Below are positions 4,983 through 20,316 of a stretch of 60,870 nucleotides of DNA, one piece after another. The notes under the pieces are model-generated. The model was not told the origin of the DNA, did no database searches, and saw nothing but the letters and a program-made list of their open reading frames with translations. The position numbers and the translations under genes are program-made. The DNA comes from Richelia sp. SL_2_1 (GTDB taxonomy: Bacteria; Cyanobacteriota; Cyanobacteriia; Cyanobacteriales; Nostocaceae): NCBI GenBank assembly GCA_012033205.1, contig JAAUSO010000020.1, positions 1 through 60,870 of the forward strand, in the 5' to 3' direction. Numbering within the stretch: the first letter of the stretch is position 1; each line of letters opens with the position of its first letter.

Positions 4983-7099
4983 GTTCTACTATCTCCAAAT
5001 ACTGCTGATATTAAAGGAATGCCCCAATCAAGACGGGCGTTAAAATTATTACCTTGTCGCCATTGCAAACCCACCCCTAAAGAAGCTAAGGAATTTGGAC
5101 TCGGATTTTCCTGTCCAGAACTGTTCCAACCGATGCCGTAATCAACGAATGGGATAACTTTTATAACTCCTGTATTTCTGAAAATACGCGCTACAGGTAT
5201 CTCAACTTCTGCCGTTGCAAAAACTCCATTATCAGTTTGCAGCGCATCTTGACGGTAGCCGCGCACGCTACCTAAGCCACCAATTACAAACTGCTCTGAA
5301 GACATAAGCGCCCGATCGGCTAATTGCACATTGGCACGTAATCGTAAGAATTGATCTTGATCCAGAACGCGCAACCATAATCCTTGACCCTGCCAAGAGA
5401 AAAATCGACTATCGGGAATAACTTCGTTCAACCCAGGTATAGGTTCGTTGATAGTTGAATCAAACGCATTCAGACCAAAATTAAATTGAGAACGAAACGC
5501 AATAACTTCTTGAGCATTTTGTTGAGTCCAATCTTGAAAAAATCGCAGTGCGAAGACGCGGCTTAACCCATCATTATCTGCTCCTGGAGAAAGTGGGAAA
5601 GGAATATCTAACAAAGAAGTTTTACTTTCCCTCAAAGAAGTTGTTAGTCCCAACGCAAATTCACGAAAAGTTGACCGCCTTGTAGATTCATTTGTATTAG
5701 CATTTTGTATCCTACGAATTATTGGCTGACGTAGTGTCAACTCATAGGAACGGGATGTCGATTCAATATCCCCACCGTTTCCATCCCTATCAATATCATC
5801 GAAAGGTGATTCAATTACTTTATTATTACTACCACTGTATGCAAATCTGAGCGTTCCATTATTAGGAGTAATTGGGAACGTATAATTAGCATCCCAAGCG
5901 TTACTACCTCCAGTTTTGGCATAGCCTAGACTTAAACTATCGCCGATTGCTAATAAGTTACCTTTAGTCAGTCCTGCTCTTTGTTGAAAACTACCAACAC
6001 TAGGAACGCGACCATTATCAAAGCTAGTGGTAGTGCTAAGTGATTTTTCCTCCTCCACCTGTACATCTAAAATACTTTCGCCAGCTTCTGTTCCTGCTGA
6101 TAAACGAGCAGTTACCGACCCAACTACAGAGTCGAATTGCAGCAATTGTAGAGCTTCCTGTAATTTTTCAATATTTAACGGTTTTGATACAGCCAGTGCC
6201 AAACGAGATTGCACATAATTTTCAAGTCTTGAGTTTTGTAGGACATTACCTTGGGAATCAGATTTCTTAGAAAGTCTTGTGACGCGAATTTCTTTTAACG
6301 TGCCTTCAATTACTCGGATGATAACTAAGCCTTTTCCATCTCTTTGGGTTTCTTTGGGAATAAAGACAATTGCACCAGAAGTTGTATATTTTTTATTATG
6401 GTAATGTTCGGCTATTAAGGAAGCTACCGAAACCAACTCTTCCAAAGAAAGAGGTTTATTCAGACACTTATTAGTAATCTTTTCTAAATCTTCTTTTGGG
6501 AAAGCTTTGTTATCAATAAATTCAAATTTTGTAGCCGTAATTTTGTCTTGAGTTTTAGTACTTTCTAAATTATCTTCTTGAGAACTTTCAAGACATAAGG
6601 ACTCTTGTTGTCGGTTGCTTTCAGGCGAAGGAGATTTAGGAGATTGTATAGGTGACTCAGGAACAGGAGAAGGTGTGGAAGGAACTTGCCTATCTTCCCG
6701 TGGTTTCTGTGGTAGTTGAGGAAAGCTATTTTCAGGTAAAGAAACTTGTGCAATATCGATACTTTGTGCATTAAAAGAATCAACAGTCATAGTCTTTAAA
6801 TTGAAGACTTGGCTGCTAATAAACTCCGATTCTTTGGGAAGATTGTTTCTGAAAGCTACATCAAAGTCTGTTTCTGGGGGAGTTGGGGTAGGGTGTAAGG
6901 ATACTTTAGATGTAGTTCGCAACGGAGCTAATGTTTGTCCTGGAGTTGTAACCTCAAGGACAGCTTGGGAAATTTGTAAAGCTTCAGGGGGTGTCGCACT
7001 TGCTGAACCCGCTATCACATTAGTGGTTAATATGATTGGGCTTATCTGCTGCAAACGCAAAAAAAACTTGCGCCAGTAAAAAATTAAATCATGGTGCAT
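4931..7099 (-). CDS. TpsB-type two-partner secretion transporter (ShlB/FhaC family)
   Basis: Outer-membrane beta-barrel transporter that would export the TpsA exoprotein encoded divergently at 7792. After an N-terminal signal-like segment there is a low-complexity Pro/Ser/Gln-rich stretch (about residues 130-170), then POTRA-type sequence (about 190-345, e.g. 'LSLEELVSVASLIAEHYHNKKYTTSGAIVFIP', 'GLVIIRVIEGTL' and 'LQEALQLLQFDSVVGSV'), then the 16-strand barrel (about 350-722). The barrel contains the 'RGYRQDAL' motif of the family and ends in Phe ('VQWNPSF'), as outer-membrane proteins do. The first gene of the minus-strand operon with the CHAT protein. Length is within the cyanobacterial range. 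Divergent pairing with TpsA is the classical two-partner arrangement. Confidence 0.88.
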   Translation of the reverse strand: MHHDLIFYWRKFFLRLQQISPIILTTNVIAGSASATPPEALQISQAVLEVTTPGQTLAPLRTTSKVSLHPTPTPPETDFDVAFRNNLPKESEFISSQVFNLKTMTVDSFNAQSIDIAQVSLPENSFPQLPQKPREDRQVPSTPSPVPESPIQSPKSPSPESNRQQESLCLESSQEDNLESTKTQDKITATKFEFIDNKAFPKEDLEKITNKCLNKPLSLEELVSVASLIAEHYHNKKYTTSGAIVFIPKETQRDGKGLVIIRVIEGTLKEIRVTRLSKKSDSQGNVLQNSRLENYVQSRLALAVSKPLNIEKLQEALQLLQFDSVVGSVTARLSAGTEAGESILDVQVEEEKSLSTTTSFDNGRVPSVGSFQQRAGLTKGNLLAIGDSLSLGYAKTGGSNAWDANYTFPITPNNGTLRFAYSGSNNKVIESPFDDIDRDGNGGDIESTSRSYELTLRQPIIRRIQNANTNESTRRSTFREFALGLTTSLRESKTSLLDIPFPLSPGADNDGLSRVFALRFFQDWTQQNAQEVIAFRSQFNFGLNAFDSTINEPIPGLNEVIPDSRFFSWQGQGLWLRVLDQDQFLRLRANVQLADRALMSSEQFVIGGLGSVRGYRQDALQTDNGVFATAEVEIPVARIFRNTGVIKVIPFVDYGIGWNSSGQENPSPNSLASLGVGLQWRQGNNFNARLDWGIPLISAVFGDSRTWQEKGLYFSVQWNPSF

Positions 7100-7791
7100 G
7101 ATAGATGTACTTATTCATTACGCATTTGTATAGCCAGTACAGTAAATCCGGGCAGGCTCGAAATTTGACTAACACGCACCCTGACTGTTTTAACAGTTAT
7201 TTACCAATACAAATCTGCAAATCTAATCCTCATATATTTGTAGGATTCTATACCATAATTTTCGATAATTCGTATAAAACTTTCTAAGTATATGCAGTTG
7301 CTCAGGAAGAAAAGTCAAATTTATAATTTTTTAGTCAAAACTTATCAGAAAAAATACTTAAAAACTGATTTTTAATCTAATGCAAAGTAGGCGAAAGCCC
7401 TTATGATTATTCGTTTCACCGCAAAATAGTCGGATGTTTCCACCTTTATAAATATTTCATAAACTAGCTTCGGATTTTACTTACTTTGTATGTAATGATG
7501 AGTATCAAAATACTCTATTTTCTAGAGGTGTAATTTTCCAATGGCTTAAAAATTGCTACTTGAGAATTATCAGAAGTAATAGTGGAGTTAACGGGACTTA
7601 AACAAAAATTAAGCCCAAACAAACCCCAAAGCGGCTTTGTAAGCACCCCAATTGCCTACTGCCTTGTCATAATTACGATTTTCAACGCCGATCTACTTGT
7701 ATTAATAAATTTGCTTGCTCTCAAGGGTGTGCTTTTGTTTCTAACTTGACTGAATCACCTAATTACTACTTTCTTTTGAGAACCTGTGTAC
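7100..7791. promoter_or_regulatory. Divergent intergenic region between tpsB and tpsA
   Basis: About 690 AT-rich bases without a convincing gene separate the divergent TpsB and TpsA genes, so promoters for both must lie here. I see no clear operator repeat. A short ORF at 7105-7287 has no recognisable features and was not accepted. Confidence 0.4.
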
Positions 7792-9879
7792 ATGAAAACT
7801 CCAAACTGGATATATTTGAAGCGAAAATCATGGGTTATAAGTTCATTGATTCTCACTGGAGTGACTTTATACCTTGAAAATACAACCCTCGCTCAGATAG
7901 TACCTGATAACACGCTAGGAACAGAACGTTCTATAGTCGCCCCCATTAATCCACAGCTAGACCGTATTGATGGTGGAGCAACTCGCGGAACTAACCTTTT
8001 TCACAGTTTTTCTGAGTTCAATATTAATGACGGACGAACGCTAGAGTTTTCTAATTCAACCGGAATTCAAAATATTTTTAGTCGGGTAACAGGACAAAAC
8101 CCTTCTAACTTGTTTGGTACGCTGCGGGTGTTAGGTGACGCAAACTTGTTCTTTCTCAACCCCAATGGCATCATTTTTGGACCAAATGCTCAATTGGATT
8201 TGAGAGGTTCATTTGTTGGCAGTACGGCTAGTAGTTTGTTGTTTTCTAATGGGACACAGTTTAGCGCCAAGAATGCACAAGTACCACCGTTGCTGACTGT
8301 TGATGTTCCTTTTCCAATTGGTTTGCAGTTTGAAGGTGTACCGGGTGCAATCCAGGTGCAAGGTTCTAATTTACAAACACAGCAGGGTAAGACTCTGGCT
8401 TTATTGGGTGGAAATGTCAATTTAGAAGGATCGTATTTGCTCTCTCCTGGTGGACGAGTTGAACTGGGAGGAATAGCAGAAGTTGGAATCGTAAGTATAG
8501 AAGGCGATAGCAGTAATCTGCGTTTTAGTTTTCCTGATGGTGTACTAAAAGCAGATGTATCTCTTAGCGCTCAATCTAAGGTGGATGTGCTTGCTGGAGG
8601 CGGTGGGAATATTACGATAAATGCTAGGAATTTTAATTTATCAGAAGAAAGTGAACTGATAGCAGGAATCAATAACAATATGGGAAGCCAGGGGGCTAAA
8701 GCTGGAGATATAACAGTTAACGCTTCAGATGCAATTTTAATTAAACCAGAAATAGAATCGTCAGGAACAATTAAAAAGTCAGGAAGAATAACAAATATTG
8801 TTTTTCCCGATGCAACAGGTGACAGTGGCAATATTTTTCTGAATAGCAATATCCTTGAATTAGGGGATGGCGCAGAAATTAATGTTAGTACCTCTGGTAA
8901 AGGAAATGCAGGTGATATAGCTATTAATACTAGAAATGATATCTTTTTAGCTGGAGGAAAATTGATTAATGGTGTATCACAACAAGCAGAAGGAAATAGT
9001 GGAGATATCAAAATTATTACAGATTCGCTTCGACTGATAAATGGTGGAGAAATAAATGCTAGCACTTCTGGTAACGGTAATGTTGGTGAGATAAATATCC
9101 GCGCTGGCAGTATATCTTTGGATGGAATTAATAGCCGAATTTTAAACACCGTATCAAAAGAATCAAATGGAGATACTAAAGGAATTAATATTGACACTAA
9201 TATACTATCTGTGAAAAAAGGCGCAGAAATTAATGCCAGTACATCGGGAATAAGAGATGCTGGAAAAATAACTATAAATGCCAGTAATATGCTGTTAGAT
9301 GGGGATAATAGTAAAATTGTCAGCAGCGTTTCTAATGGCGCAACTGGCGATAGTCAAGGTATTGAAATCAATACTGCCGATCTTTCTGTGAAAAATGGTG
9401 CGGAAATTAATGCTAGTACCTCTGGTAGAGGTAATTCAGGTAGTGTAACTATCAATGCGGATTCCGTTTCTTTAGAAAGCAGAGGTCAAAATCCTGAGAA
9501 AAAAAGTGGTATTTTTACTAGTGTGTCAAGAGATGCACAAGGAAATAGTGGAGAAATCCTCATTAATACAAACAAACTTGAAGTAAAAAATGGCGCTCAA
9601 ATTAATGCCAGTATTTCAGGTAAAGGAAATTCAAATAATATTATTATCAATGCTCGCAATCTAATATCATTAATCGGTGAAGAAGAAATACCTCAAAGAC
9701 AAGATGAACTGACTGGTATCTATGCCAGTGTGTCCGAAAATGCCGTAGGAAATAGTGGAGATATCCGCATTAATACAGATATTTTAGAGGTTAAAAATTC
9801 GGCTCAAATCAATACTAGTATGTCTGGATTAGGCACTTTAGGTAGCATTATTATTAATGCTGAAAAGAAGCATCATTGA
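7792..9879 (+). CDS. TpsA haemagglutinin-like exoprotein, N-terminal part (frameshifted)
   Basis: Secreted filamentous-haemagglutinin-type exoprotein. The ATG at 7792 is preferred over an in-frame GTG at 7786. A signal peptide ('WVISSLILTGVTLY', cleavage near 'TLAQ') is followed by the TPS secretion domain (about residues 38-240) with its hallmarks 'NLFHSFSEFNI', 'IFSRVTGQNPSNLFGTL' and 'FFLNPNGIIFGPNAQL'. After that come beta-helix repeats built on 'VKNGAEINASTSGRGNSG..TINA'. The frame closes at 9879 in the middle of a repeat, but the downstream frame (from 9857) continues the same repeat without loss, so the gene is broken by a single frame change near 9870-9876. Family and pairing with the TpsB gene are firm; whether this product is made is doubtful. 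Confidence 0.82.
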   Translation: MKTPNWIYLKRKSWVISSLILTGVTLYLENTTLAQIVPDNTLGTERSIVAPINPQLDRIDGGATRGTNLFHSFSEFNINDGRTLEFSNSTGIQNIFSRVTGQNPSNLFGTLRVLGDANLFFLNPNGIIFGPNAQLDLRGSFVGSTASSLLFSNGTQFSAKNAQVPPLLTVDVPFPIGLQFEGVPGAIQVQGSNLQTQQGKTLALLGGNVNLEGSYLLSPGGRVELGGIAEVGIVSIEGDSSNLRFSFPDGVLKADVSLSAQSKVDVLAGGGGNITINARNFNLSEESELIAGINNNMGSQGAKAGDITVNASDAILIKPEIESSGTIKKSGRITNIVFPDATGDSGNIFLNSNILELGDGAEINVSTSGKGNAGDIAINTRNDIFLAGGKLINGVSQQAEGNSGDIKIITDSLRLINGGEINASTSGNGNVGEINIRAGSISLDGINSRILNTVSKESNGDTKGINIDTNILSVKKGAEINASTSGIRDAGKITINASNMLLDGDNSKIVSSVSNGATGDSQGIEINTADLSVKNGAEINASTSGRGNSGSVTINADSVSLESRGQNPEKKSGIFTSVSRDAQGNSGEILINTNKLEVKNGAQINASISGKGNSNNIIINARNLISLIGEEEIPQRQDELTGIYASVSENAVGNSGDIRINTDILEVKNSAQINTSMSGLGTLGSIIINAEKKHH

Positions 9880-11077
9880 TGGAGGTAGCGCCTTTATTGG
9901 TGTACGCGAAACAGGAAATATCATTGAAGCAAGTAACGATAAAAGGGATAGGCGTATCGAAATTTCTACTGGTTCTTTGTATTTGAATAATGGCGCTCAA
10001 CTGAGTGCAAGCACTCTTGGAAAAGGAGATTCAGGAAGAGTAGTTATCAATGCCCAAGACATGATTTCTATTGATGGAGTGGGCAGAGGTAATAAATTGA
10101 CAGAATCTAGTGGTGTATTTAGCGCCGTGGAATCTCAAGCAGAAGGTAATGGAGGTAATATCGAAATTACAGCATCTTCTATTTCTTTAAAAAATGGCGC
10201 ACAAATAAGAGCTAGTACCGCTGGCTCAGGAAATCCAGGTACAGTCGTAATCAATGCCCAAAATCAATTATTTTTTGATGGCATTGCAAGTAATGGACAA
10301 CCCAGTGGTGTAATTAGCTTAGTTGAAGCGACGGGAAAACCAATAACTGGACAGCAAACAGCCAGAGGCAATATAAAAATAAATGCTCGCTCACTTTCTC
10401 TTACTAATGGGGCTGAGGTTAACGTTTCAAGCTTAACATCTCAACCGGGATTTGCTGGAAATATTGATATTACATCACCTTCTATTCGACTCGATAGAGG
10501 AGGTATTAAATCTCAAACTACTTCAGGTGATGGTGGAAACATTACGCTAAAGGTTCAAGATTTACTATTCATGCGTCATGATAGTCAAATTTCTACAACT
10601 GCTGGTCTTGCACCATCTGGTGGTGATGGTGGCAACATTACGATTGATGCAAGTAAAGGCTTCATAGTTGCTGTACCTTATGAAAATAATGACATCACAG
10701 CTAATGCTTATACAGGTAATGGCGGAAGAGTAACAATCAAGCCTAAACCTGAAGGAATTTTCGGTATCGAAGAGCGCAAAAGAGAAACTAAATTCACAAG
10801 TGATATTACAGCCAGTTCACAGCTTGGCATTGATGGTGTTGTGGAAATTGCAGTACCTGATGTTGACCCCAGTCAAGGATTAACACAATTACCAGATACC
10901 CCTCGCACAGTAGCAGTTAATGACGGCTGTCAAGTCAGCGCTGGGCAAGAAGCTGTTCAATTTTTCGACATAGGACGTGGAGGAACTCCACCTAGCCCGG
11001 ATGATTTGCTTAGTGTTGATACGTCTCTCATGGAGTGGAGTCCGTTTTTGCTGAAACGACTAACAGCTATAAACTAG
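9857..11077 (+). pseudogene. TpsA exoprotein, C-terminal part in shifted frame
   Basis: Direct continuation of the exoprotein at 7792 in another frame. The first genuine residues after the shift are 'SIIDGGSAFIGV', which complete the repeat unit interrupted upstream. More beta-helix repeats follow ('LNNGAQLSASTLGKGDSGRVVINAQ', shown in part), ending in the conserved cyanobacterial TpsA tail: 'LTQLPDTPRTVAVNDGC' and 'QFFDIGRGGTPPSPDDLLS'. There is no ribosome site of note before the ATG at 9857, so independent translation is unlikely. The break sits at an A-rich stretch (GAAAAGAAG); a real frame mutation, a read error or slippage could each explain it. Full-length TpsA would be about 1,090 residues. 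Confidence 0.75.
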
Positions 11078-11871
11078 AAACAACAAACAATTCTCTCCGC
11101 CCAGATAAAGATATTCAAAGAAAAACATTCACTTCTAACTTGGAAGCTCTTAGTACAACCCAAGTATCTAGTTTCACTGCTAAAATGTCCCCATCTTGCC
11201 AAAGTCGCTAGTTGAGTTGGAAATTTCAATCTGCAATAATTTATTACTACGTTTGCTTAGCTTCAAATGACTTATTTCCGATTACACCCCAACGATTTAT
11301 CAAAACTACCACTTTAATTGTTTCTGATTTCGTTATTAAAAAACACATCTTCACTACTTGTGACCTAAACTAAAGTTTGGTTACAGTTGCTATTGAATTG
11401 TGAATTCAAATTTATACCATAAGTGACGGTATGTAGGCTTCTGGTTTGATGGCTCTTTTGAGACAAGATTAAGAACTGTTACTTGACGATAAAAATTTTA
11501 ATTACTTCAGAATATTTAAACTAGAAGTACAACACACCAAAACGCCTTTAATTGTTACCTATAAGGGCGAAACTATTAGTAGTTATCTACCTTGCTACAA
11601 CTCATCAACCCAAACGTCCAATTTTTGGGACAATGAAAGGAAGTGGTGAAATAAGCGTCTCCTTGATTGCTCTAGCAGTTCTTCTTAACGCATAATAAGC
11701 ACTGAGCGTGAAAAAATTATAACGGTAGTCAGCACTTTCCTCTACAATGTGCTAACTGTAACAAGAAACATTATTTAATAAAACAACAAACCCATCCTCA
11801 AAATAAACAACACGAACTGACCCATCAACAGTTATCTTTATTTATAACGGGGCAGGTCACTTAAATCACTT
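11078..11871. other. Non-coding spacer between tpsA and parA
   Basis: About 790 bases without a supportable gene. It marks the junction between the secretion cassette and the plasmid maintenance module and must contain the parA promoter. I see no clear iterons here; the only repeats resembling a partition site are inside parB. Confidence 0.4.
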
Positions 11872-12624
11872 ATGACCAAAATCATCGCAGTTTTTAACCA
11901 GGCGGGCGGGGTAGCCAAAACCACCCTAACCCAAAACCTGGGCTACCACCTAGCACGCAGGAAACACAACGTCCTGCTCATAGACATGGACCCGCAAGGC
12001 TCCTTAACAATTTTTATGGGCTTAGTTCCCAGAGAATTGGAGAAAAGTATGTATGATGCCATAGTCGAAGAACAACCCCTACCGATAACGTCGGGGATTC
12101 ACGGCATGGACTTAGCACCCACTAACACAACCCTTAGTACGGCGGAAATGCAATTAGTCAATGCTGATTTGCGCGACTTTCGCCTCAAATACGCCATTGA
12201 GCCAATTCAAGAAGAATACGACTTCATCTTGATAGATTGTCCTCCCAGTTTGGGATTGCTAAGTTACGTTTCTCTTGTCGCAGCAACTCACGTTCTCGTA
12301 CCCATAGAAACCCACTTCAAAGCCTTTGAAGGCACCAACGAACTCCTTAAAACCGTCGCTAGAGTTCGCACTAGGGTCAACCGTACTCTGGAAATAGGCG
12401 GATTTGTCCCTACCAAATACGATGCCCGTAACTCCCAGGACACCCGCACCTTGGGAGCCATTCAAGAACAACTTGCCGGAGTCGGGAAAATCCTTCCTCC
12501 CATTGCTCGTTCTACCACCTTCGTTGATGCCACAGAAGAAAGAATGCCCTTAGCCGCATATCAGCCAAAACATCCAGCCGTTAAAGTACTTGAACAGATA
12601 GCTAGCAGCATGGAGTCACTATGA
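11872..12624 (+). CDS. parA: ParA-type partition ATPase (module 1)
   Basis: Plasmid partition ATPase that would bind DNA non-specifically in its ATP form and be stimulated by the ParB encoded just downstream. The P-loop at residues about 8-18 reads 'NQAGGVAKTTLT': compared with the usual deviant Walker A (KGGxGKT) the first, signature lysine is replaced by Ala and one Gly by Ala. The Walker A' region 'LLIDMDPQGSLT' and Walker B 'FILIDCPPSLG' are intact, as is the 'PIETHFKAFEGTNELL' segment. This variant P-loop is what I recall from cyanobacterial plasmid ParAs, but the loss of the signature lysine is still notable. The stop overlaps the parB start in an ATGA arrangement, so the two are co-translated. 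Confidence 0.9.
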   Translation: MTKIIAVFNQAGGVAKTTLTQNLGYHLARRKHNVLLIDMDPQGSLTIFMGLVPRELEKSMYDAIVEEQPLPITSGIHGMDLAPTNTTLSTAEMQLVNADLRDFRLKYAIEPIQEEYDFILIDCPPSLGLLSYVSLVAATHVLVPIETHFKAFEGTNELLKTVARVRTRVNRTLEIGGFVPTKYDARNSQDTRTLGAIQEQLAGVGKILPPIARSTTFVDATEERMPLAAYQPKHPAVKVLEQIASSMESL

Positions 12625-13871
12625 ACCGTAAACGCAGCCAACCACTTAAAAGTCAAATTGACATACCTTGGGACACCACAGATATTTCAGCTAACGATAA
12701 AGCCGATTCCACCCAGAACGTACCATTAAAACAAATTCATATAGCTGCAACTCAACCGCGCCGCTACTTTGACCCCAAAGCGCTCTCAGAATTAGCCGAC
12801 TCCATCAAACAACACGGCATCTTGCAACCTCTGCTGGTACGTCCTAGAGCCAGAACTGGATACGAATTAGTAGCAGGAGAGCGTCGCTACCGTGCCGCCA
12901 AAGAATGTGGATTAAAAGATGTACCCGTCGTTATCCGCGAATTAAGCAACGAAGCAGCCTTCCAACTAGCATTAATTGAAAACCTGCAACGGGAAGACCT
13001 TAACCCCGTAGAGGAAACAGAAGGCATCTTACACCTACTGGCTATCAGATTAGGTAGAGATGTGGAAGAAATTCCCCCTTTACTGCGCCGCTTACAGCAC
13101 GAACGGAAAGAATCTGCTAAATCTTCCAATAACGTTATTGTCAAAGAAGAAACTGATGAAATAGACGCTGACAATAATGTAATTGAGTCAGAATCCTCTC
13201 AAGAAAAAACTTCCAATAACGTTATTGGAAAAGGTGAAACTGAAAAAATAGATGATGAAAATAACGTTATTGGGGAACAGGAAATAGAGCCGAATGAATC
13301 TGAAAATAACGTTATTGGAACAGATGACTCGGATAATTTAGACGCTGATAATGATGTAATTAAGAAAGAAGAATCCCAAGCAGAAGTTTCTGACAATAAC
13401 GTTATTGTAAAAGACGAAACTGATATTAATAAAGCATCTAATCAAGAAAATCCTGAGCTAAAAATTGTTGAACAAGTGTTTAACGGCTTAGGTTTAATGA
13501 CCTGGGAATCATTCGCCAACAACCGTCTGCCCTTGTTAAACCTTCCAGAAGACATTTTGGAGGCATTAAGAAAAGGTTCCCTTGAATACACCAAAGCCAA
13601 AGCCATTGCTCAAATTAAAGAGACCCTAGAGCGCGTTGCCTTCTTAAACCAAGCTATTAAAGAAAATTGGTCTTTAAGCGAAATCAAACAACGTATTGGC
13701 GAGAAGAAAACCCCAAGCTCTACCCCAAACGCCGAATCTGACGATTACAAAGAGCGCTTTACTGCTGCGACTACCAAACTAAAAAAGTCGCGTATTTGGT
13801 CAGATCAGAAAAAACGCAAGCAGATAGAAAAATTGCTCTCACAACTGGAAGCGCTGACACAATCCGGTTGA
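12621..13871 (+). CDS. parB: ParB-type partition protein with embedded palindrome array
   Basis: CTP-switch/centromere-binding ParB family protein. The N-terminal ParB/Srx domain (about residues 33-130) shows 'TQPRRYFDPKALSELADSI', 'GILQPLLVRP' and 'LVAGERRYRAAKECGL', then 'LALIENLQREDLNPVEE'. The C-terminal part ('GLGLMTWESFANNRLPLLNLP', then coiled-coil-like sequence) is conserved in plasmid ParBs. Between them, residues about 165-275 are an acidic, probably disordered linker made of seven near-repeats of 14-15 residues, each containing NNVI (once NDVI). At the DNA level five of them carry the identical palindrome AATAACGTTATT (see the separate repeat entry). Overlaps parA by 4 bases. The insert is unusual; the family call is firm. 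Confidence 0.9.
   Translation: MNRKRSQPLKSQIDIPWDTTDISANDKADSTQNVPLKQIHIAATQPRRYFDPKALSELADSIKQHGILQPLLVRPRARTGYELVAGERRYRAAKECGLKDVPVVIRELSNEAAFQLALIENLQREDLNPVEETEGILHLLAIRLGRDVEEIPPLLRRLQHERKESAKSSNNVIVKEETDEIDADNNVIESESSQEKTSNNVIGKGETEKIDDENNVIGEQEIEPNESENNVIGTDDSDNLDADNDVIKKEESQAEVSDNNVIVKDETDINKASNQENPELKIVEQVFNGLGLMTWESFANNRLPLLNLPEDILEALRKGSLEYTKAKAIAQIKETLERVAFLNQAIKENWSLSEIKQRIGEKKTPSSTPNAESDDYKERFTAATTKLKKSRIWSDQKKRKQIEKLLSQLEALTQSG
13128..13406 (+). repeat. Array of palindromes AATAACGTTATT inside parB
   Basis: Exact copies start at 13128, 13215, 13260, 13305 and 13395; degenerate copies AATAATGTAATT at 13173 and AATGATGTAATT at 13350 fill the gaps. Start-to-start spacing is 45, 42, 45, 45, 45 and 45 bases. 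The palindrome extends to 20 bases in the copy at 13211-13230 (TTCCAATAACGTTATTGGAA) and to 14-16 bases in two others. All exact copies use the same four codons for Asn-Asn-Val-Ile while the flanking codons vary. The arrangement looks like a protein-binding array, possibly the parS centromere of module 1, carried inside the coding sequence. The repeats are seen directly; the role is inferred. Confidence 0.8.
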
Positions 13872-14001: not shown

Positions 14002-14268
14002 ATGAATATTCAACTCAAGCCCGAAGACGAGCAATTTATTCAAGCACAAATTGCTAGAGGTAAATATGAAAATCCGGAAGAGGTTATTAGTAAAGCATTA
14101 AAACTGTTAGACGAGTGGGAAAAAGGCTATCAAAAATGGGTTGAAGAAACCCGTCAAAAAGTAGAAGTCGCTGTTGAGCAATTGGAAAGAGGTGAAGGCA
14201 TTGATGGGGAAGTTGTAGTTGAACGACTTCGGGAGAAGCTACGTAAAGCCAGAGAGAATCAATCATGA
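14002..14268 (+). CDS. parD: ParD-like antitoxin
   Basis: An 88-residue type II antitoxin. The N-terminal ribbon-helix-helix ('MNIQLKPEDEQFIQAQIARG', then 'YENPEEVISKALKLLDEWE') is the standard ParD/CopG pattern; the charged C-terminal tail would wrap the ParE toxin. It would repress its own promoter and neutralise the toxin. The stop overlaps the start of the toxin reading frame (ATGA at 14265-14268), the normal parDE arrangement. Because the toxin frame downstream is broken, this antitoxin may now be an orphan, which would leave it without a plasmid-addiction role. Location directly after parAB fits a plasmid stability island. Confidence 0.85.
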   Translation: MNIQLKPEDEQFIQAQIARGKYENPEEVISKALKLLDEWEKGYQKWVEETRQKVEVAVEQLERGEGIDGEVVVERLREKLRKARENQS

Positions 14269-14571
14269 AACAACATATTATCTCCCCAGAGGCAAATAAG
14301 GATTTGTCAGAAATTATTGATTATTTTACCAGTCGTAATATTGACGCGCTCAGAGCGTTTTATTGATGAGTTTAATAAAAAATGTAGATATCTTGCTAAT
14401 TTTCCTAACATGGGACGTAGTTATTCAGATATTAAGGATTATTTGCGGGGTATATCTTTAGAAAGTTACATTATTTTTTATCGAGTTACGGATAGTGGAA
14501 TTGAAATTTTACGTGTAGTTAGCGGTTATAGAGATTATCCGTCTTTATTCGCAGATTCGAGTGATGATTAA
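14265..14571 (+). pseudogene. parE: ParE-like toxin, single-base frameshift
   Basis: The ATG at 14265 opens 'MKQHIISPEANKDLSEIIDY' in the ParE/RelE toxin pattern, but the frame stops after 'NIDALRAFY'. The frame one base over carries on exactly: 'ERFIDEFNKKCRYLANFP', 'NMGRSYSDI', 'SYIIFYRVTDSGIEILRVV', 'GYRDYPSLF', which is the rest of a ParE protein. Removing one A from CTC(A)GAG near 14352 restores 'NIDALERFIDEF'. The site is not a homopolymer, so a genuine inactivating insertion is more likely than a read error. Intact, it would be about 100 residues. ParE toxins poison DNA gyrase; here only the ParD antitoxin remains intact. Confidence 0.85.
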
Positions 14572-17822: not shown

Positions 17823-19673
17823 TTAGCGTTCCAACCCCCGATTCTTCTTCTCCTTAGCTTCTTTTCGCTGCACCTTTTGAAGCTGCAAGCGCTCCAATTC
17901 CGCATTCCAATCCTCTGCTTTCGGGTGCGCTATGGTTGTCTGCGGTAGTAATTCTTTTATTGCTTGTGCCCTACTGCATCCCGCATCATCGTTATCGTAG
18001 GCAGCAGTAATAGCCCTCACTTCTCTAAGAAATTCTAATGGCAGACTTTTGGTGCTATCCACTGCCATATACATAGTTCTTTCAGAGGGCATACCCCCAC
18101 GCTCACTTACCCCAATACTGGCGCATGAAAGCGCTTCAATAGGAGATTTACAAAGGACTACTTTTTGTATTTCATCTCCTGGCTTACCACCCAAATGGAA
18201 GTAAAACCATCCCTCCCTCCGTTTTGAATTGAGCGCGTATCCCATAAACGAATTATTCTCTCCCCGCGTCCCCCGCAAAAATGCACCTTTTAAAGTAGTT
18301 TCTGCATTTGTGTATTGCGTTCCTTCTTTTACTGTCAGCTCGCGCATTGTAAACACGGCATTTTGCTGGTCATCAGCGTATAGCCATGCCTTTTGTTTAA
18401 GTCCAATGACAAAGTTTTCAGGCAATCCGCGTTTTTGTACTAAATAATCTTGTACGGATAGCCACTTTGATTCATTCGGGGTTGGTGGCTTAAAGACTGG
18501 TGCGGGAACTTCAAGGGCAATTTTAGTAACTTGTTTTTCTATCAAAGCTTTGCTAGCACGCAGCATCCCCTCTTCCCCAAATTGTTCGTGTAACCAAGCC
18601 ACAGAAGACCTAAAGTTGAAATTATTAACGTGCATGACTAAATCAATAGCCCCACCACCACCTTTTTCTTCTGTAAAGTCATACCACTTAGAACCATTAA
18701 TATTGATAACTCGTTCCAAACCCTTCCAACGATTTTCTCCAATGTCCGCTTTGTCAAGTCCTAAATTCCACGCTACTTCTTCTAAAGGCAAGTCCCTTAA
18801 TTTATCAGCTTGCTGTTTCCAATAAAAGTTTTCTGCTTCTAGTTCAGCTACGCGCTTTTCTAATGAGAGCCGTAATTTTTCAGAAGCCGTTGCCCTTTGA
18901 GATGCCCGTCTTTCTAACTCTACAATTCTTTTGTGGTCTGCTAGCTGGTGATTTATAGATTGAATTGTGGGGTCTGCTTTGATGCGTTCAAATAATTGCT
19001 GTGCCGTCTCTCCCCGTTTGGGTGCCAATCGGTCTAATTCCAAAGTCAAAGGTTCTTGATTGACTGCTTGGTAGTACTCTTTAACCTTAGTGTGTGTAGC
19101 TTTGCTGCCCTTCACACCTCTTTCAATTCCCAAATGTGCCAACGCACTTGCATAGCTATCCTGGAGTTTGGACATTTTGATGCTAGCTTGTCTGCCATCT
19201 CCTCCAAACATCTCTTTGTGGCTTAGTTGTTTAGTTTTGTCGTTGACTGGAACGATATAAGCGTGGATGTGGGGAGTAGATTCATCTAAATGTAGTTCAG
19301 CCCGAACGCATTTTTCTCCAAAATTTTCTTGCAACCATTTCGTTGAAGCGTTAGCAAAATTCCACATCAATTTATCATTCCATTCCCCAGCTTTATCCGG
19401 GTTCTCTGGGCGAAAATACTCCGGGGATGCGCTCAAGAAAATTTCGCTGCATAGTACCGCATCTTTACGCGGCTTATGTTTAGTATTATCAGCTATTTTA
19501 GCTTTTACTATTTCCTCTAAAGACGGGTCAAAATCATTTCCAATTAGCCGAATATTTTCTTTGTAGGGGTCAGCATTTGGTGTATCTTGGAGACGGGCTG
19601 TATGTTTTTCGCTACCGCCCACATTCCCAAAACTTTTTAATTTTCCAACGCGCATGATTGCTAAAGCAGTCAT
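17823..19673 (-). CDS. MobV relaxase fused to DUF3991/Toprim primase-like region (copy 1)
   Basis: Mobilisation relaxase that would nick one strand at oriT and attach to it. The N-terminal MobV/Pre domain (about residues 1-200) starts 'MTALAIMRVGKLKSFGNVGG' and contains the metal-binding motif 'ELHLDESTPHIHAYIVPV' (about 120-137). A coiled coil (about 235-280) leads to a DUF3991/CHC2-like segment ('WYDFTEEKGGGGAIDLVMHV') and a Toprim-type end ('VVLCKSPIEALSCASIG', 'ITAAYDNDDAGCSRAQ'). The ATG at 19673 is preferred to a TTG at 19706 because it matches the start of the second copy at 57463 and has a purine-rich site. The fusion suggests one protein couples transfer to priming. Both halves are family-supported; the coupling is inferred. 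Confidence 0.85.
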   Translation of the reverse strand: MTALAIMRVGKLKSFGNVGGSEKHTARLQDTPNADPYKENIRLIGNDFDPSLEEIVKAKIADNTKHKPRKDAVLCSEIFLSASPEYFRPENPDKAGEWNDKLMWNFANASTKWLQENFGEKCVRAELHLDESTPHIHAYIVPVNDKTKQLSHKEMFGGDGRQASIKMSKLQDSYASALAHLGIERGVKGSKATHTKVKEYYQAVNQEPLTLELDRLAPKRGETAQQLFERIKADPTIQSINHQLADHKRIVELERRASQRATASEKLRLSLEKRVAELEAENFYWKQQADKLRDLPLEEVAWNLGLDKADIGENRWKGLERVININGSKWYDFTEEKGGGGAIDLVMHVNNFNFRSSVAWLHEQFGEEGMLRASKALIEKQVTKIALEVPAPVFKPPTPNESKWLSVQDYLVQKRGLPENFVIGLKQKAWLYADDQQNAVFTMRELTVKEGTQYTNAETTLKGAFLRGTRGENNSFMGYALNSKRREGWFYFHLGGKPGDEIQKVVLCKSPIEALSCASIGVSERGGMPSERTMYMAVDSTKSLPLEFLREVRAITAAYDNDDAGCSRAQAIKELLPQTTIAHPKAEDWNAELERLQLQKVQRKEAKEKKNRGLER

Positions 19674-20316
19674 TGAAAAACCCCACCAACAACGAGAGTG
19701 TGACAAGCCCCGTAGGGCGAACGTAACTTCTGTGTCCGAGAGAGCGTACAGCGAGCGAGATGGGCGTAGCCCACCCCTCCGGGGGCGCAGAAGTGAAGTG
19801 AGTCCACTTCGATTATAACGAAGCTGCTCGAAATTGCTTTTTTGTAGTAGCAGATGTGTTGGAAACGCAGGATTTAAAAAATACGTGAAACCCAGGTAAT
19901 AAGCGCAATCTATGCCCTTGTTTTAACGAAATTATCGTTGCATCGAATTAATACTAAATAAATGCGAGTAAAAGGGATTCACTAGGGAAATATTAGCCAC
20001 TAACCTGATAATTGCCCCTAAATCCCTACCTAATCCCTACTAAAATCTGGTAGGTAAAATTGTTTAGTTTTCTGGTAAGTAACTGTTTGCTGCTGGAAGT
20101 ATCATATAAATATTGAGGAAAGCTGGTGAGAGCATTATAATAAATGCCGAAAAGCTATAAAATGTTCTAACAAATAACGAATCTTGGCAAAATAAAGCCT
20201 AATAAAGATTTTTGACTTGGGTTAAAAATATTTTTTGGTGCGAGGATTATTTGAGAAAAATTTGAGTGTTTGGTGAGGGGTTTCATTATAGATTATAAAT
20301 ATAACTAATCTATGAC
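19674..20316 (-). promoter_or_regulatory. Upstream region of mobV copy 1, possible oriT
   Basis: No gene is visible. Next to the relaxase start are two short perfect hairpins: GGGC-GTA-GCCC at 19762-19772 and GAAGTG-AGTC-CACTTC at 19795-19810, in a GC-rich block (about 19690-19800) of the kind dispersed in Nostocales genomes. MobV origins usually lie just upstream of the gene and contain inverted repeats, so this is the obvious oriT candidate. Confidence 0.35.

Follow-up and report, generated by a model that had tools for sequence, protein, structure and literature searches.

What is a regular series of palindromes doing inside the reading frame of a plasmid partition gene? The question is raised by a parAB locus in the window, by which we mean the whole stretch of 60,870 nucleotides analysed here, from contig JAAUSO010000020.1 of the cyanobacterium Richelia sp. 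SL_2_1. The answer that we favour, from comparison of sequences, is that the palindromes are very probably the parS of this plasmid, embedded in the gene of the ParB that would read them. The evidence for this comprises the array itself, its reading frame, arms that covary, a rule connecting a protein residue with a site base, copies outside parB, and a mosaic in Thermus plasmids.

The array in the window's parB

The parA gene lies immediately upstream of parB with a 4-bp gene overlap, and the predicted ParB has both a ParB_N domain (Pfam, E 2.8e-33) and an HTH_ParB domain (E 3.9e-10). The linker of this protein is encoded by DNA that holds five exact AATAACGTTATT palindromes, starting at 13128, 13215, 13260, 13305 and 13395, and two degenerate copies, all of them in frame and following one another in steps of 45, 42, 45, 45, 45 and 45 bp; these are the five exact and two degenerate palindromes, spaced by 45 bp (once 42), that an earlier note on this DNA had described, and their coordinates are confirmed. 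The features of the locus, in window coordinates, are the following.

11872..12624, + strand: parA, Walker-type partition ATPase (AAA_31, E 3.3e-49; also a ParA profile match)
12621..13871, + strand: parB, 416 aa (ParB_N at residues 32-123, linker at about 169-277, HTH helices at 278-290 and 295-307)
13125..13451, + strand: parB linker segment, residues 169-277, which holds the array; helix and strand absent in the model
13128..13139, no strand: palindrome copy 1, AATAACGTTATT, symmetric over 14 bp (13127-13140)
13173..13184, no strand: degenerate copy AATAATGTAATT, still encoding NNVI
13211..13230, no strand: palindrome copy 2, the 20-bp TTCCAATAACGTTATTGGAA, perfect and identical to six of the nine copies found outside parB in relatives
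13260..13271, no strand: palindrome copy 3, AATAACGTTATT, exact match
13305..13316, no strand: palindrome copy 4, AATAACGTTATT, exact match
13350..13361, no strand: degenerate copy AATGATGTAATT, encoding NDVI
13393..13408, no strand: palindrome copy 5, 16 bp symmetric around AATAACGTTATT at 13395-13406
13452..13541, + strand: ParB helix-turn-helix (model helices 278-290 and 295-307)
13521..13523, + strand: N301 codon; this residue of the recognition helix covaries with the base adjacent to AACGTT (residue-base comparison)

The same note had assigned the array to a disordered linker, and the AlphaFold2 model of the window's ParB agrees with this, pLDDT being below 50 across residues 185-260; the model places N301 in the second helix of the helix-turn-helix. 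Exact ATAACGTTAT occurs five times in the window, always in parB, against an expected mean of 0.12, and none of 100 shuffles reaches five. With two mismatches the array pattern is found 13 times against 7.25 expected, and 6 of 100 shuffles reach 13; this count is unremarkable, and the signal thus resides in the exact copies. Across the 7.55-Mb assembly the exact 12-mer is found at ten places, five in the window's parB, four in the C298 parB and one in an unrelated gene on C34; the reversed pattern, used as a control in the same assembly, gives two matches. We take the lone C34 copy, which sits inside another gene, to be a chance occurrence.

The C298 locus (L001, approximately 5290-6540) is a second parAB in this genome, with a parB that carries four exact palindromes and is 88-89% like the window's parB outside the linker; where its linker ends, the L001 parB is broken, giving ORFs of 289 and 147 codons. 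Elsewhere in the window a ParD-like antitoxin with a small downstream ORF (14002-14571) and a Mob_Pre relaxase (17823-19706) are consistent with a plasmid, and two overlapping ORFs (7786-9879 and 9857-11077) appear, from their translations judged by eye, to be one large filamentous-haemagglutinin-like protein split by a frameshift.

Copies of the palindrome within and beyond parB

A scan of genome contigs with six query peptides, two of them in the linker and one beside the helix, yielded 27 loci, and the linkers of all 27 carry between one and five in-frame copies of AATAACGTTATT. Among 29 sources (the window, L001 and L011-L037) there are nine copies outside parB; one and the same 20-bp palindrome accounts for six of these, and the sources in which they occur all have one to three copies within the gene. 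Three of the outside copies, in Calothrix PCC 7716 p4 (L027), are intergenic by annotation. Ten genomes were searched for CCAATAACGTTATTGG and exact copies were readable for seven; among the matches listed, the genome of L034 has eight of nine on the parB contig, including one within parB; the genomes of L033 and L027 each have four of four on the parB contig or plasmid; the genome of L022 has four on its parB contig and two on a different contig; and those in the genomes of L018, L031 and L032 are in the gene only (two, two and three respectively). Exact 16-mers off the parB contig, two in G392 and one in G394 among the matches listed, are counted against the parS reading. Of the eight perfect copies of ACCCATAACGTTATGGGT on plasmid pAQ6, one is inside parB, six more are no farther than about 6 kb from parAB, and the eighth is at 87 kb; NZ_CP091921 has two copies, both with the arm type of its own parB and the second intergenic by annotation. 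In NC_021575, in NC_007411 and in the 49 of 55 kb fetched from NC_019752, every AACGTT palindrome that reaches 12 bp is inside parB.

Copies that are dispersed, or clustered near parAB, are the typical pattern of centromere sites. The window's contig, which may be incomplete, has no exact core outside parB, and the array may therefore be its centromere. Our impression, from few plasmids and with L018 and L031 fitting poorly, is that relatives with few copies in the gene tend toward dispersed ones. The proposal that the palindrome matters as a DNA site rather than as a peptide gains from its recurrence beyond parB: in some relatives the parB plasmid carries further copies, part of them in DNA annotated as intergenic.

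One alternative is that the array is mainly an operator through which ParB controls its own transcription. The sites do lie within the parAB operon, inverted half-sites (GTTAT-8 bp-ATAAC) are present just upstream of parA at 11831-11848 of the window, in the form ATAACCAGTTAT also upstream of parA in L001, L011, L012 and L019, and could be an operator. The palindromes, however, are inside or downstream of parB or are scattered over the plasmid (eight along the G394 parB contig, and out to 87 kb on pAQ6), and this dispersal is the pattern of centromere sites rather than that of a single promoter. We consider an operator as the main role to be improbable; autoregulation, which had been offered earlier as another possibility, may be a further role of the array.

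The identity of the palindrome's codons had been put forward as a sign of selection on DNA, to be checked in relatives. Across the clade of the window, 68 of 86 NNVI peptides have AATAACGTTATT itself as their coding sequence, where codon usage outside the linker predicts 4.7%, although copies derived from repeats share descent and are not independent, which inflates the count; the 86 peptides come from 28 of the 29 sources (the window, L001 and relatives), L028 having been dropped by a text filter. The check that had been suggested comes out in favour of selection on DNA; the outcome named as refuting, the peptide kept with other codons and the palindrome lost, is seen in the other 18 copies, which count against the parS reading. 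Selection on DNA is also indicated by the wider family, in which the arms change self-complementarily.

For that wider comparison, genomes of the window's class have ParB matches in 46 of 116 cases at E 1e-30 and in 123 of 388 at E 1e-50; stretches were fetched around part of the matches only, with 80 places added from the matches listed at E 1e-50. Among 218 unique related ParB ORFs, 159 have a perfect linker palindrome of 10 bp or more with AACGTT at its centre, in frame 0 in every one of the 159, and 31 have an in-frame near-palindrome (8 or more of 10 positions symmetric), in some cases around a very different core. By this measure the remaining 28 have no linker site. Fragments account for some of these (L009 and the second piece of L001), but others are whole genes, namely five of H type (L052, L179, L185, L186 and L193) and several of N type, so the feature is not universal. 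Distant paralogues in the window's own genome have CATAACGTTATG (L006 and L007) or CAAAACGTTTTG (L010), and a paralogue site, CCATAACGTTATGG, occurs only once in that genome with one mismatch allowed, within its own parB. More distant ParBs (L107, L114, L115, L116 and L119) have perfect or near-perfect in-frame linker palindromes with other cores (GTAGCGCTAC, ATTCTAGAAT and others).

The arms vary among genes (for example GGAGGAAAACGTTTTCCTCC, TGCCCATAACGTTATGGGCA and TGACGGATAACGTTATCCGTCA) yet stay reverse complements to position 10. The 159 genes were chosen by symmetry at positions 1-5, with positions 6-10 unselected and the longest copy used where there are several; positions 6-10 are symmetric in 149-158 of them, position 11 in 88 and position 12 in 75, and the drop after position 10 points to a site of about 20 bp. 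Perfect palindromes of at least 20 bp number 94 in linkers, in 89 of 143 representative genes, against 0.4 in synonymous-codon shuffles of the linkers, and the remaining 121.7 kb of those 143 genes contains none.

Similar sites are present in Thermus, which belongs to another phylum. The megaplasmid ParB of T. thermophilus HB27 belongs to the same family, with 43% identity to L007, and Li et al. 2015 (PMC4409726), in the portion of the paper available to us, named a 14-bp palindrome in this parB, AAGGACGCGTCCTT, as parSm with gel-shift support, which counts against the linker palindrome as parS. The HB27 gene (L240, NC_005838.1, 78937-79830) holds both the published AAGGACGCGTCCTT and a linker palindrome, TTAGGGACAACGTTGTTCCTA, the latter with a GC3 of 0.30 across 10 codons against 0.90 for the gene. 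We examined ten Thermus parB genes, HB27 and nine picked for variety among the matches listed (54 Thermus records matched). An AACGTT site is present in nine of the ten, symmetric at 9-12 of its first 12 positions, and in nine the 10 site codons have a GC3 of 0.30-0.80 against 0.89-0.94 elsewhere in the gene. The T. oshimai site, with AAGCGTTT, is symmetric at 9 of 10 positions and encodes SV there.

These observations bear on a second alternative, that NNVI (xNVx) is a functional linker peptide and the palindrome a by-product of codon use and tandem duplication. The 18 palindrome-free NNVI copies of the clade are what it would predict, as is the conservation of N and V in a 48-row alignment, but nearly all rows were chosen for AACGTT and this conservation counts for little. 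It is contradicted by the intergenic copies, and against it stand the full 20-bp copies outside parB, three of them intergenic in L027 and more on pAQ6, outer codons that vary (HNVM, QNVL, DNVI, ENVF, GNVS, NNVI) yet remain reverse complements, the persistence of symmetry in T. oshimai with SV encoded, and Thermus site codons that oppose the bias of their own gene. We regard a protein-level explanation as very unlikely.

The helix residue and the flanking base

In our first set of genes the base that borders AACGTT depends on which residue precedes RLP in the helix-turn-helix: N goes with T in 52 of 52, H with C in 7 of 7, S with A in 15 and with G in 2 of 17, T with A in 3 of 3, and V with A once, one further gene having an empty residue column and base T. 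The rule was written down after this set and before the second (L124-L225) was fetched. In the held-out genes N goes with T in 34 of 34, H with C in 14 of 14, S with A in 20 and with G in 1 of 21, and T with A in 9 of 9, with no contradictions among those that are scorable; 24 of the 102 ORFs are without a perfect 10-bp palindrome and were left unscored, and the held-out genomes, being of the same class as those used first, do not count as independent lineages. For sites that are imperfect or have another core, the two sets together give N-T 15 of 15, H-C 3 of 3, S-A 9 of 10, and K-A, K-C and F-A once each. In the Thermus genes the pairs are N-T (4 of 4), H-C (2 of 2, with HB27 as an H gene that matches the rule) and T-A (1 of 1), together with A-A (3 of 3), a residue outside the rule.

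No other protein column shares as much information with the flanking base as the code residue (0.87), and the two columns ranked after it, at 0.74 and 0.47, belong to the linker and are coded by the site. Trees give 20-23 residue changes and 21 base changes, and all independent pairs agree; only 2-4 of the 16-18 independent N/T pairs are on strongly supported branches, and a sign test on those alone is not significant. Alignment of a paralogue with phmmer matches the code residue to the N of a 'VAN' stretch in solved Spo0J/ParB chains. By residue counting in this analysis it is equivalent to N178 of Caulobacter ParB, which is listed among the parS-contacting residues in the accessible part of Jalal et al. 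2020 (PMC7383237). That ParB is the reader of a site carried inside its own gene, as the earlier note had ventured, is supported by a helix residue that predicts the site base in both cyanobacteria and Thermus. Covariation of outer positions with helix residues was also considered and rejected, the top columns being linker residues encoded by the site; R at residue -2 accompanies G at position 7 (39 of 48), a pairing that follows large clades and is not claimed.

That the palindromes act as hairpins in parB mRNA, for example in translation pausing or decay, is extremely unlikely: by inspection, the perfect inverted repeats, which reach 28 nt, would be able to fold in RNA, but mismatches between the arms are more often A-C (20 of 48) than G-T (12 of 48), the opposite of what RNA pairing tolerates, a ParB helix residue predicts the base, and copies exist in annotated intergenic DNA.

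Thermus plasmids and known partition systems

With the palindromes taken as parS, the Thermus genes offer a view of how site and reader may change. The parB genes of pTT27 (HB27) and pAA229 differ at 70 of 894 positions, 50 of them within 180 bp that hold both the site and the helix (Fisher p 2e-22, the bounds having been set after the differences were seen); the two genes are 97% identical outside this piece, and their parA neighbours agree at 955 of 969 positions. The pAA229 piece is 93% like that of pVV8 and the remainder 81%, and the piece in TTHNAR1 plasmid 3 is 91% like T. aquaticus p61 and the remainder 74%. At least two events in which site and reader travelled together would be the simplest account of these alignments. 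Plasmids pAA2-2c and pVV8 are 98% alike outside the piece and 87% within it, and both have residue A and base A, with a difference at site position 5. The published AAGGACGCGTCCTT is present in three of the ten Thermus parB genes and absent in seven; it is in both pTT27 and pAA229 although their residue and linker site differ, and among the ten genes the helix residue is tracked by the linker site only, not by AAGGACGCGTCCTT.

We think it probable that cyanobacteria and Thermus share a lock-and-key cassette, an in-frame centromere beside the helix that reads it, such that one short recombination moves both and gives a new partition specificity in one step under a one-residue code (N-T, H-C, S/T/A-A), and that the published T. 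thermophilus parSm is not the principal site. A single ancestral site would have lain in frame (xNVx = nnnAACGTTnnn) in the flexible linker between the CTPase domain and the HTH, with the adjacent recognition helix reading the palindrome and N301 the base beside AACGTT. In the window's lineage the parS array, with its five good and two decayed sites, could then have arisen when a linker unit of 15 codons was repeated. ParB dimers would load at the linker palindromes of their own gene and presumably spread, with ParA segregating the plasmid, and we infer this loading, spreading and ParA-driven segregation from the ParABS family; ParB is predicted to bind the array, which may be the plasmid's only centromere. 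In relatives without an array the site and reader lie within about 180 bp, so that one recombination would carry both and partition specificity would change at once.

If this is correct, protein and DNA site could change together with no lethal intermediate and a new plasmid incompatibility could arise, both open questions being answered by one device. The centromere of many cyanobacterial and Thermus plasmids could be read from parB alone, the family would supply naturally occurring and perhaps orthogonal ParB-parS pairs for use in labelling and in the design of plasmids, and one stretch of DNA would double as coding sequence and centromere, here as an array.

The locus resembles the ParABS systems of Caulobacter and Bacillus in its parA-parB operon with the ParA ATPase upstream, in the ParB_N and HTH_ParB domains of ParB, in palindromic sites close to parAB on the replicon, and in an HTH alignable with solved ParB/Spo0J. 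It differs from canonical ParABS in an AACGTT core with variable arms in place of TGTTNCACGTGAAACA, in a site coded between the CTPase domain and the HTH, and in an array of five plus two copies; canonical TGTTNCACGTGAAACA has two matches at 3 mismatches in the window against 2.05 expected, nothing beyond chance. That a parS can lie inside parB is already known. B. subtilis parS-359 is within the parB gene (PMC4442127), in the coding sequence of its binder as here, but we found no covariation of site and reader, such as is seen here, described in the accessible part of that source. For T. thermophilus parABSm, a member of the same ParB family, a binding site within parBm was likewise inferred from gel shifts and foci in E. 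coli (PMC4409726, PMC10085754, as far as the available text goes); the 14 bp published there are in another part of the gene than the linker palindrome, of which we found no mention in the parts of these papers available to us. The ParB/Noc switch (PMC7383237, accessible part) is similar in that a few residues of the DNA-binding domain set specificity, and the code residue aligns with N178; there N178 is conserved and residues 173, 179, 184 and 201 switch, whereas here the equivalent of N178 varies with the site. In the portions of the open-access literature searched, with most subscription papers outside the scope, we found neither the residue-base rule nor an exchangeable piece described, nor a conserved site lying in frame next to the helix that reads it, nor this site in cyanobacteria; one search by the letters of the site turned up a single paper, which concerns a Pseudomonas toxin-antitoxin and is unrelated to judge by its title.

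A second letter of the code is a possible lead only: R at residue -1 goes with G at site position 5 in a few W-type genes, and the pairing is noted for L147 (which is on the same plasmid as L231), L163, L242 and L243, but two other genes with R there have A.
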